A stretch of DNA of 64,000 nucleotides. It comes from Lacipirellulaceae bacterium (GTDB taxonomy: Bacteria; Planctomycetota; Planctomycetia; Pirellulales; Lacipirellulaceae). The DNA lies in the NCBI GenBank assembly GCA_040218535.1, contig JAVJRG010000010.1:124001-188000 (forward strand), in the 5' to 3' direction. The first letter of the stretch is position 1. Each line of letters begins with the position of its first letter. Below, in pieces: positions 37,117 to 39,999 of this stretch. The notes under the pieces were generated by a model that saw nothing but the letters and a program-made list of their open reading frames with translations, was not told the DNA's origin and did no database searches. Made by a program: the position numbers and the translations under genes.

Positions 37117-38142
37117 CTAAGCTATTGCTCCCAGCGTCCGATCCATCGCGGTGGCGATCTTCTGACAACCGGTCATCGTTTCTGCGAATTGATCGAAGTT
37201 GAGCGACTGATAGCCATCACTCAGCGCTTTATCGGGATTCGGATGGACCTCGATGATCAGTCCGTCGGCACCCGCGGCGATCGAAGCCCTGGCCATCGCC
37301 GGCACCAGGCTGGAATGGCCCGTGCCGTGGCTCGGGTCCATCACGATCGGCAAATGGGTGCGCTCTTGCACGTAGGGAGCACTGGCCAGTGGCAGGGTGA
37401 AGCGGGTGTGCGACTCGAACGTCCGAATGCCACGCTCGCAAAGCATCACGTTGGGGTTCCCTGCGTCGAGGATGTACTCCGCAGCAAGTAACCATTCATC
37501 AATCGTCGCACTCGGTCCACGCTTGAGAAGCACCGCTCGCGGCGACTTACCGGCTGCTTCCAGTAATCGATAGTTCTGCATGTTCCGGGCGCCAATCTGG
37601 AGGACGTCGGCGTATTCAGAAACTAATTCGACATCATCGGGCGAAACGACTTCGGTAACGATCGCCAGCCCCGTTTGGTCGCGGGCTGTGGCGAGGAGTT
37701 TCAAGCCGTCTTCCTTCATTCCTTGGAAGCTGTACGGTGACGTCCGAGGTTTGAAAGCGCCGCCACGAAGCGCCGATGCGCCTGCCTTTTTTACGGCAAA
37801 CGCACTGGCGACGATCTGTTCTTCGCTTTCTACCGAACAAGGTCCAGCGATCACCCCGATGTGCGGGCCACCCACGGTCAGGCTGCCCGCGGTGATCACC
37901 GAGGGCTCTGGCTTGAGTTCTGAACTTGCCAGTTTGTACGGGGCAACAATCGGCATCACTTCGTCAACGCCGGGCGCGCTTTCGAGTGACTCCATTCCCG
38001 CGCCGCGTTCTTCACCCACGGCAGCAATCACCGTGCGTTCGGATCCTTCAATCACGGTCGGTTTGAGTCCTAGCGATTCTACGCGGGCTACGGTGTCCTT
38101 GATATTCTCTTTGGTCGCGGTACTTTTCATCACAACAATCAT
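37117..38142 (-). CDS. aroF: DAHP synthase with N-terminal regulatory domain
   Basis: 341 residues. It condenses phosphoenolpyruvate and erythrose 4-phosphate to DAHP, the first step to Phe, Tyr and Trp. Residues 1-70 form the ferredoxin-like regulatory domain ([20 protein letters not shown]) found in class I-beta enzymes such as that of Thermotoga. The barrel follows with [57 protein letters not shown] and [14 protein letters not shown] lies eight bases before the ATG. Upstream lies an aromatic-rich leader frame plus a terminator, so expression is probably controlled by attenuation in addition to allosteric control of the enzyme. Confidence 0.96.
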
Positions 38143-38220
38143 CTCGATCTGCTCCTATTTTGTAGGGCGTTAAGTTGCGGCTCCGCCGTCGCGCCCAGGT
38201 GAATAGCCTTGTCTGGAAAA

Positions 38221-38258
38221 GAAAAAGCCCCGGGCGTCGTTGGCGTCGCCCGGGGCTT
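38221..38258 (-). terminator. Attenuator terminator upstream of DAHP synthase
   Basis: Read on the minus strand: AAGCCCCGGGCG, a ten-base loop, CGCCCGGGGCTT, then TTTC and TTTTCC. The stem is twelve perfect base pairs. It lies 29 bases after the leader stop codon and about 80 bases before the DAHP synthase start, inside the transcribed leader. Confidence 0.9.
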
Positions 38259-38286
38259 GGTTGGTTCTGTGATTGGCAAACTCTCG

Positions 38287-38388
38287 CTATGCACAGCCTC
38301 CCTCACGCCCGGGCTTCGTAAAATAGAAGTCCCAGGACCAGGTAAAGCTAAAAAAGCCGCATCGCGATGTCATGTAGTCGCTTGCCAT
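38287..38388 (-). CDS. Aromatic-rich leader peptide of the DAHP synthase gene
   Basis: A 33-codon frame from ATG at 38388 to TAG at 38287-38289. Codons 12-23 read FFSFTWSWDFYF: five Phe, two Trp and two Tyr in total, nine aromatic of twelve, plus an earlier Tyr5. A second in-frame ATG at 38373 would give a 28-residue peptide. Codons 24-28 overlap a segment (38305-38316, AAGCCCGGGCGT on the minus strand) that can pair with either arm of the downstream terminator. This is the organisation of amino-acid attenuators such as trpL and pheL. No good Shine-Dalgarno is seen. I infer that it is translated and regulatory; the peptide itself probably has no other role. Confidence 0.85.
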   Translation of the reverse strand: MASDYMTSRCGFFSFTWSWDFYFTKPGREGGCA

Positions 38389-38394
38389 AACATT

Positions 38395-38423
38395 AGTATG
38401 CGCTCGCATTACCCGGTTAGCAA
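38395..38423 (-). promoter_or_regulatory. Candidate promoter of the leader and DAHP synthase gene
   Basis: On the minus strand TTGCTA (38418-38423) and CATACT (38395-38400) are 17 bases apart, each matching four of six bases of the sigma-70 consensus. Transcription would begin close to the leader ATG, giving a nearly leaderless transcript. Confidence 0.35.
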
Positions 38424-38628
38424 GCGTTTATTTCGGTGAGGTTAGTCGATACGAAACTTGAGAGATCGCTGTTAGCTGCGAAAGTTACCATGAATTCCCA
38501 AGGAAATCTCACACTATTTTCGCAAACTTGCAGTTCAGCGATGCGATAGCAATAATGCTGAACCACGATGTGAATCACTGAATTGCAAGTGGCTTCCCTC
38601 CAACATTTCTCACCCAGGCAAAATTTTG

Positions 38629-39999
38629 ATGACTACCCCCAACGCTCCCCGTCGCGATTTTCTGAAGACTACTTTGGCAGGCGCGGCAGCGGCCGCGACG
38701 CCTTACGCGTTTACCAGCATGGCACGTGCTGATCATCACGAAGAGAAGAAAGCGGACAAGCAGCTCATCGGTGTCATTGGCTGCGGCGGCATGGCTCAAG
38801 GCAACATCAACACTGTGAAGGATCTCGTGACGGTGGCAGCAGCTTGCGATGTGGATTCCGGGCGGGCCGAGAAGATGAGCAACCAGTGGGGCGGTGGTAA
38901 AGCGAGAATCACCGAAGACTATCGCTGGATGCTTGATAACAAGGATATCAAGCTGATCCACATCGGCACGCCCGACCACTGGCACACCAAGCCACTGATC
39001 GAAGCAATGAAAGCCGGCAAGGATGTCTACTGCGAAAAGCCGCTCACGCTGACCATCGACGAGGGCAAGCTGATTCGCAAAGTGCAAAAAGAAACCGGCT
39101 CTATTGTTCAGGTTGGAACGCAGCAACGGAGCACTTTTCACTTGTTTGTGAAAGCGATGGCGATCGTTAACGAAGGTCGCCTTGGCAAGATCAAGCGTGT
39201 CCAAGCTGCCATCGGTGGCGCACCTGCCAGCCCTGCCATCCCCGTTGCTGAGCCACCATCGAACCTCAACTGGGATCGCTGGCTCGGCCCTGCGCCGCTT
39301 GTTGATTACCGTTCGCGACCACGCGAGAATACGCGTCCCAACTCGAATTGTCACTACGAGTTCCGTTGGTGGTACCAATACTCCGGCGGCAAGCTCACCG
39401 ATTGGGGAGCCCATCACGTCGATATTGCCAACTGGGCGCTCAAGCTCAATGGGCAAACCGAAGGCCCTGAGTCGATCAGTGGCACGGCAAAACATCCCGT
39501 GGAATTCGTCAACGGCGTACCCCTGGAAAGCGATCGCTACAACACCGCCACGGCCTTCAACTTCACCGTGAAATACCCCGGCGGGACTGAGATGATCATC
39601 CGTCATGACACGGATAATGGCGTCCTCATCGAAGGGGACAAAGGTCGCATTTTCGTCAGTCGCGGTAAGCTCGCTGGTAAACCCGTTGAGGATCTCAAGG
39701 AGAACCCGTTACCCGAGGACGCCCTCAGCAAGGTCTACAAAGGGATGCCGATGGAGCAGAACGAGCGTCGCGCCCATTGGCTGAACTTCTTGCACTGCGT
39801 GAAACAGCGAAAGGACCCAATCTCCGATGTTCACACGCACATGGATGGCTTGAACCTCTGCCATCTAGCCGGCATCGCCGCCCGCTTAGGACGCGAACTG
39901 AAGTGGGATGCCGCCAATGAGCAGATCGTCGGCGATGAGCTTGCCAACAGCATGCTCGCTCGGCCGTACCGTGAGGGGTATGAAATCGAGATGAGCTGA
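38629..39999 (+). CDS. Tat-exported Gfo/Idh/MocA family oxidoreductase
   Basis: 456 residues from ATG at 38629. A twin-arginine signal (RRDFLKTTLAGAAAAATPYA) ends near ARA and suggests export folded, with its nicotinamide cofactor. The Rossmann domain begins IGVIGCGGMAQGN (about 48), with the family motif EKPLT at about residue 137. The C-terminal domain contains GGKLTDWGAHHVDIANW. Such proteins in planctomycetes are thought to act on sugars or their derivatives outside the cytoplasm; the substrate is unknown. It runs divergently from the DAHP synthase leader. Confidence 0.92.
   Translation: MTTPNAPRRDFLKTTLAGAAAAATPYAFTSMARADHHEEKKADKQLIGVIGCGGMAQGNINTVKDLVTVAAACDVDSGRAEKMSNQWGGGKARITEDYRWMLDNKDIKLIHIGTPDHWHTKPLIEAMKAGKDVYCEKPLTLTIDEGKLIRKVQKETGSIVQVGTQQRSTFHLFVKAMAIVNEGRLGKIKRVQAAIGGAPASPAIPVAEPPSNLNWDRWLGPAPLVDYRSRPRENTRPNSNCHYEFRWWYQYSGGKLTDWGAHHVDIANWALKLNGQTEGPESISGTAKHPVEFVNGVPLESDRYNTATAFNFTVKYPGGTEMIIRHDTDNGVLIEGDKGRIFVSRGKLAGKPVEDLKENPLPEDALSKVYKGMPMEQNERRAHWLNFLHCVKQRKDPISDVHTHMDGLNLCHLAGIAARLGRELKWDAANEQIVGDELANSMLARPYREGYEIEMS

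Follow-up and report, generated by a model that had tools for sequence, protein, structure and literature searches.

A predicted leader-peptide attenuator with a Phe, Trp and Tyr codon run upstream of a DAHP synthase gene in Planctomycetota

What does a short reading frame packed with aromatic codons do in front of a DAHP synthase gene, the entry step of the aromatic pathway, and which amino acids would it report on? The question is raised by a stretch of 64,000 nucleotides from a Lacipirellulaceae bacterium (GCA_040218535.1, contig JAVJRG010000010.1, positions 124,001 to 188,000), referred to here as the window. We put a probability of about 90% on the element being a classical ribosome-mediated transcription attenuator of the DAHP synthase gene, as predicted from sequence and modelling. 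The enzyme would very probably be turned up when aromatic amino acids are short.

The regulated gene, at 38142-37117 on the minus strand, was identified as DAHP synthase by its matches to NCBIfam PRK08673 (480.8 bits, cut-off 335) and TIGR01361 (379.9 bits, cut-off 267.75). The gene upstream of the leader is divergent and starts at 38626 on the plus strand. The minus-strand frame from 38388 to 38287 runs from ATG to TAG (33 codons plus the stop) and reads MASDYMTSRCGFFSFTWSWDFYFTKPGREGGCA. Here the sequence agrees with the initial annotation, which had described a short frame with a Phe, Trp and Tyr run upstream of DAHP synthase, the segment AAGCCCGGGCGT at 38316-38305, and a perfect 12-bp terminator hairpin with a T tract between leader and gene. 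Its count of nine aromatic codons in twelve needs correcting, as a recount of the run FFSFTWSWDFYF gives eight (five Phe, two Trp, one Tyr). The hairpin begins 28 bases past the leader stop. Its arms, AAGCCCCGGGCG (38258-38247) and CGCCCGGGGCTT (38236-38225), form 12 perfect pairs and are followed by the T tract TTTCTTTT, hairpin and tract together spanning 38258-38217; the ATG of the DAHP synthase gene (38142) lies 82 bases downstream of the terminator end. The features are as follows.

38418-38423, minus strand: -35-like element TTGCTA; TTGC or TTGA recurs about 35 bases upstream of the leader ATG in relatives.
38395-38400, minus strand: -10-like element CATACT, with a 17-base spacer, ending 6 bases upstream of the leader ATG.
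38287-38388, minus strand: leader peptide frame MASDYMTSRCGFFSFTWSWDFYFTKPGREGGCA, 33 codons plus stop; comparable leaders occur in relatives.
38320-38355, minus strand: control codons FFSFTWSWDFYF, 8 of 12 aromatic; Phe, Trp and Tyr occur together in 60 of 66 leaders.
38308-38336, minus strand: possible protector (pre-emptor) hairpin, strands 38336-38326 and 38317-38308, from a single-sequence fold that is weak here (z -1.05).
38296-38316, minus strand: putative antiterminator strand AAGCCCGGGCGTGAGGGAGGC, which encodes the codons past the run; based on pairing energy, shuffles and family covariation.
38247-38258, minus strand: terminator 5' arm AAGCCCCGGGCG; covariation of the terminator helix.
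38217-38236, minus strand: terminator 3' arm CGCCCGGGGCTT and T tract TTTCTTTT; sequence and covariation.
37117-38142, minus strand: regulated gene, DAHP synthase, 341 aa; matches to PRK08673 and TIGR01361.

The locus thus has a run of end-product codons in a short frame and a predicted intrinsic terminator between that frame and the gene. Both window strands were scanned for frames of at most 150 codons that are rich in any of eleven amino-acid groups and have a terminator-like hairpin behind them, and this leader and hairpin were the sole entry. The 186-nt leader folds with a z score of -5.58, and 0 of 200 shuffles were equally good. A simple terminator scan of the window, with a loop limit of 8 bases, omitted the leader hairpin, the loop of which is 10 bases.

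To place the element in a wider context, we collected 97 genomes, namely the window's own genome and relatives from its genus, family, and order, 96 of which had a DAHP synthase match. Twelve genomes were excluded for lack of an orthologue whose start region was intact, which left 85 orthologues including the window's own. Our strict rule required, within 700 bases upstream, a frame with a start codon and at least six aromatic residues in 12, together with a hairpin and T run located -10 to 90 bases from the leader stop. By this rule 66 of the 85 have a leader and 71 a terminator, and 60 have the two in place together; a looser rule found both in 70. Among 25 DAHP synthase paralogues (~50% identity), the strict rule found one leader, three terminators and no case of both, and on the reverse strands of the 85 it found one leader, 22 terminators and again no case of both. 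The looser rule likewise gave 0/25 and 0/85 in these controls. The paralogue control is imperfect in that the own-genome paralogue lies ~370 bases past a PDT gene, where the upstream stretch is partly coding. Leader and terminator are conserved, and so is their order. This alignment of the regions upstream of related DAHP synthase genes, which the initial annotation had proposed as a check, strongly favours a leader-peptide attenuator (60 to 70 of 85). The same annotation had named homologues that keep the gene and lose the run or terminator as evidence against it: most orthologues keep both, and a minority, 9 of 85, have no leader recognisable by eye (L021, L130, L134, L151, L153, L156, L160, L161, L162). 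These nine are scattered over several families, some of which have members that bear the element, which suggests that the leader was lost.

Covariation was evaluated in an alignment of 58 of the 60 paired leader-terminator sequences, with two that have long tails (L003 and L006) left out. In the terminator helix, 93.3% of cells are paired and 7 of 11 pairs have changed on both sides, with a covariation score of 0.372 compared to 0.151 in shuffles and at most 0.109 in slid versions. The antiterminator, formed by the tail of the leader frame and the terminator 5' arm, has 78.1% of cells paired (slid versions at most 55.5%) and a score of 0.162, compared to 0.121 in shuffles (sd 0.010) and at most 0.116 when slid. 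Six antiterminator pairs have changed on both sides, a number also reached by 63 of 500 shuffles and two slid versions, and 23 cells have a two-sided change, with up to 33 in slid versions. On this evidence the antiterminator is moderately supported by covariation and the terminator strongly. An alignment-free comparison shows that the leader tail and the terminator arm have co-evolved: tails pair with their own arm at a mean of -20.87 kcal/mol and with foreign arms at -17.94. None of 20,000 permutations equalled this own-arm preference, whether in all 60 leaders, in the 26 outside the window's own family, in the 34 inside it, or in 16 taken one per family. Compared with 100 shuffles of itself, the tail ranked in the best 5% in 39 of 60 leaders. 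The window's own tail beats all 100 of its shuffles and pairs with the terminator 5' arm at -22.6 kcal/mol and with the 3' arm at -21.9, so that the earlier proposal of pairing with either arm holds for the window's sequence. It does not hold as a general rule, since the tail pairs more strongly with the 5' arm in 52 of 60 species, which makes a classical antiterminator the better model. In the leader-frame tail, which has the consensus GGGGCCGGAGG, the end GGAGG is conserved in many members and resembles a Shine-Dalgarno sequence lying within a coding frame; it may lengthen the antiterminator or make the ribosome pass more slowly.

We modelled the effect of ribosome position by folding the RNA between the ribosome's leading edge, set 14 bases past the A site, and the end of the terminator loop, and recording how often the 5' arm pairs with upstream RNA. 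Across the 60 leaders, the modelled pairing probability averaged 0.66 for a ribosome on aromatic codons and 0.16 for one that had reached the stop; in 59 of 60 the run gave the higher value. When the ribosome was placed four codons short of the final aromatic codon, cognate leaders gave 0.71, swapped arms 0.61 and shuffled leaders 0.52. By sequence and folding, then, the antiterminator strand is predicted to be exposed by a ribosome on the run and covered by one at the stop. In the window's leader, the probability was 0.75 from the first Phe of the run through the Phe preceding Tyr, both Trp codons included. It then fell to 0.49 at Tyr and to 0.20 at the final Phe, reaching 0.01 at the stop codon (footprint 14); a footprint of 11 or 17 moved this drop by one codon. 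The last Tyr-Phe codons would therefore report poorly and the earlier ones well, and the model bears out the initial annotation's expectation that stalling on the last two covers the segment and stalling earlier frees it. With no ribosome in the model, mean 5' arm pairing was 0.56 (0.22 in the window's own leader), and stalling on the run exceeded the ribosome-free value in only 27 of 60 leaders, so that untranslated leaders are not in general predicted to terminate. At equilibrium the complete RNA of the window's leader still favours terminator formation when a ribosome sits on the run, which means that the switch must be kinetic, with the choice made during transcription.

In the mechanism that we propose, transcription would start at the leader ATG or within a few bases of it, and the leading ribosome would translate the short frame dense in Phe, Trp and Tyr codons. 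When a charged tRNA is scarce, the ribosome would wait on the run and leave 38316-38296 open to pair with the newly made 5' arm of the terminator, and the polymerase would continue into the DAHP synthase gene. When the tRNAs are charged, the ribosome would reach the stop codon and cover 38316-38296, allowing the terminator to form and ending the transcript ~80 bases upstream of the gene. We infer the transcription start, translation, stalling, termination, and the set of amino acids that count.

The expected start site follows from a promoter-like pattern that recurs upstream of the leaders. Among 65 leaders with an ATG, TTGC or TTGA was observed 48 times at 34 to 36 bases upstream of the ATG and 13 times at 38 or 39, typically with a 17-base spacer to a -10-like element that ends 6 to 10 bases upstream of the ATG. 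The ATG nearest to the run was treated as the leader start, except in the window's own leader, for which the next one upstream was chosen by hand. The promoter scoring gave a bonus for TTG, which biases its figure of 62 of 65 with TTG, and the unscored positions were relied on instead; base-shuffled upstream regions matched the score of their real counterparts in an average of 5.65 of 65 cases. In the window, the -10 element is ambiguous, with CATACT (17-base spacer) tied with the overlapping ACTAAT (20-base spacer), and CATACT is preferred because relatives, such as the compared genome L002 of the same genus, show this geometry. A stricter promoter scan of the window listed none at the leader. 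Inspection by eye of stretches upstream of the leaders found no evidently conserved Shine-Dalgarno pattern. With the promoter-like pattern ~35 bases upstream of the ATG, transcription is expected to start at the ATG or a few bases from it, which suggests a leader mRNA that is leaderless or nearly so.

A further RNA structure, a protector hairpin that would let untranslated leaders terminate, was also considered. The fold of this region has a z score of -1.05 in the window and -3.47 in L002, and it is better than 95% of shuffles in only 12 of 60 leaders. For the inner protector hairpin, 20 of 500 shuffles and one slid version had a higher covariation score, so that covariation does not support it. 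Such a hairpin is plausible in some lineages, for example that of L002, and overall weakly supported. Another candidate from single-sequence folds, a protector helix pairing the Phe-Trp codons with the CCGGA of the tail, was set aside when shuffles matched its covariation (194 of 500 reached its paired percentage and 234 its score).

All three aromatic amino acids occur together in 60 of 66 leaders, with five lacking Trp and one lacking Tyr. Shuffling the aromatic residues among leaders gave an expected 43.6 with all three (sd 3.1, maximum 54 in 5000), and outside the window's own family 28 of 31 leaders had all three compared to 20.9 when shuffled (sd 2.1; 0/5000 as high), both comparisons being inflated by shared ancestry. 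Trp itself is not in excess, at 82 of 480 aromatic codons in leaders against 225 of 1216 in the window's long frames; an apparent enrichment relative to DAHP synthase genes (20 Trp among 417 aromatic codons) was discarded on that comparison. Phe is the commonest class (262/480), and TTT encodes it in 188 of 262 leader cases. The corresponding figures are 21 of 181 for a set of 30 DAHP synthase genes and 214 of 565 for the long frames within the window. Strong codon bias has been described in attenuation leaders, and rare codons are not presented as the whole explanation (PMC1183508, in the part available). The TTT preference could reflect sensor sensitivity or, equally, RNA structure. Residue order is partly kept (Trp at -3 in 29/60, Phe at -2 in 42/60, Phe at 0 in 52/60), and most run positions interchange Phe, Tyr and Trp across leaders. 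Judged by codon content, it is likely that all three amino acids are sensed.

These same figures bear on the possibility that the attenuator senses Phe only, or Phe and Tyr, with the Trp codons riding along. That reading, which we hold to be possible and on the doubtful side, draws on the prevalence of Phe, the strong preference for TTT and a Trp share equal to background, as well as on the aroR attenuator, reported as responsive to Phe and unresponsive to Tyr (PMC11802643, in the text available). Against it stand the joint occurrence of all three amino acids above the shuffled expectation, overall and outside the window's own family, a count that ancestry inflates, and the model, in which a ribosome waiting at a Trp codon does as well as one at a Phe codon.

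A leader peptide could instead arrest the ribosome in the manner of TnaC, stalling it on a free aromatic amino acid or another ligand and not through tRNA charging. The partly conserved residue order goes beyond what codon counting needs and would fit such an arrest, but Phe, Tyr and Trp replace one another at most run positions, as expected of codon-based sensing, and RNA pairing accounts for the conserved Gly/Ala tail; we consider this very improbable. We attach next to no weight to an ordinary terminator or structural hairpin unrelated to DAHP synthase control, with an aromatic run there by coincidence. GC-rich hairpins are common, and terminator-like hairpins alone turned up on 22 of 85 reverse strands, but the divergent upstream neighbour leaves no gene for the hairpin to end, and leader plus terminator are present in 60 to 70 of 85 orthologues versus none of the reverse strands. 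Codon-based attenuation of the DAHP synthase gene is the reading that we carry forward.

To estimate how widely the element is distributed, we examined the best 29 loci, other than the window's own, from a phylum sample of 147 genomes. Two had cut loci with a misplaced gene start (L205, L206) and two repeated others (L196 and L197, repeats of L137 and L154), leaving 25 usable. Leader and terminator were found in 14 of these 25 best-matching loci: seven of seven from another order of the same class, five of six from one family at a greater distance, and one each from two others. Among 80 loci from named genomes, which overlap in part with the 85 orthologues and the phylum loci and are not additive to them, 41 carried both, including that of Botrimarina colliarenosi (L103). 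We lean slightly towards the element being a three-amino-acid OR gate on a leaderless mRNA, responding to shortage of Phe, Tyr or Trp, that was already present early in Planctomycetota, has been kept in several families and orders and has been lost in a few.

Titles from outside Planctomycetota are borne by 13 of the 80 named-genome loci. Two Chloroflexota loci (L101, L109) have dense Phe/Tyr runs and a terminator 417 and 560 bases upstream of the DAHP synthase gene. Loci from Oscillochloris (L098) and Acidipila (L099) have a Phe/Tyr run upstream of DAHP synthase, with no terminator detected. Trp is absent from all four runs, which could have either an independent origin or descend from an older, Trp-less form. 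Within the window's own genome, no comparable leader was found in ~450 bases upstream of one PDT gene, two trpE/pabB-type genes and pheS, nor at a third, weak chorismate-binding match, which was scanned once. The genome also has a second DAHP synthase, ~51% identical, which follows a same-strand prephenate dehydratase gene at a distance of ~370 bases (G000:C5, ~1233839-1236322), and no similar leader was found within 700 bases upstream of it.

Gene regulation in Planctomycetota has, to our knowledge, been little explored. A conserved case there would place translation-coupled attenuation in a phylum known for the unusual organisation of its cells. How one attenuator integrates three amino acids could be tested naturally on such a run, and the probable leaderless start would allow the same for attenuation when ribosomes load onto a bare 5' end. 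Most documented leader-peptide attenuation comes from Proteobacteria and Actinobacteria, with some cases in Firmicutes; the available part of a 2010 article states that, before its Firmicutes case, leader peptide systems had been shown only in the first two groups (PMC2965389). Short leader genes in Planctomycetes have been counted by distance, with no aro case named in the available part of that source (PMC4833913). No Rfam leader family (Trp_leader, Phe_leader, His_leader and others) matched at or above its gathering threshold in the whole window. A permissive search of 37900-38700 gave one match, to His_leader on the plus strand, that was taken as chance (22.9 bits against 49, E 0.25). The open-access literature, to which our search was confined, yielded no such element in planctomycetes and no Phe-Trp-Tyr leader.

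The enterobacterial trpL, pheL and pheM systems combine a leader peptide, control codons, an antiterminator and a terminator. They differ from the planctomycete element in sensing one amino acid each and in controlling trp, pheA or pheST. The ilvGMEDA leader (Ile, Val, Leu) is multivalent and reports several end products of a branched pathway; it resembles the present element in this respect and differs in serving the branched-chain, not the aromatic, pathway. With this leader and the Phe-Tyr-Phe of aroR, the earlier statement that known attenuators sense a single amino acid goes too far. The accessible parts of the literature outline leader attenuators of the trpL/pheL type (PMC11802643, PMC2659441), give a Tyr-sensing aroF attenuator for E. 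coli/Shewanella (PMC2659441), and record the ilvGMEDA attenuator (PMC1183508).

Comparable cases are described on DAHP synthase genes themselves. In Acholeplasma, uORFC-13-1 upstream of aroF is likewise a predicted frame with Phe codons followed by an intrinsic terminator; it differs in lineage and in having 24 representatives with at least one Phe, and a three-amino-acid run is not mentioned in the available part of that source (PMC8632094). Another is aroR, the leader of aroF in C. glutamicum, as described in the available parts of PMC11802643 and PMC4046766: a short aromatic leader peptide and a terminator precede DAHP synthase, readthrough occurs on stalling, and the response is to Phe and not to Tyr, despite a Tyr codon. 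The aroR peptide, from Actinobacteria, has Phe-Tyr-Phe and no Trp, whereas the planctomycete run is longer and includes Trp; the likeness is one of kind and does not imply descent. Leader attenuators on DAHP synthase are known already, and what appears to be new, as judged from our search of the open-access literature, is the three-amino-acid run and the presence of such an element in Planctomycetota.
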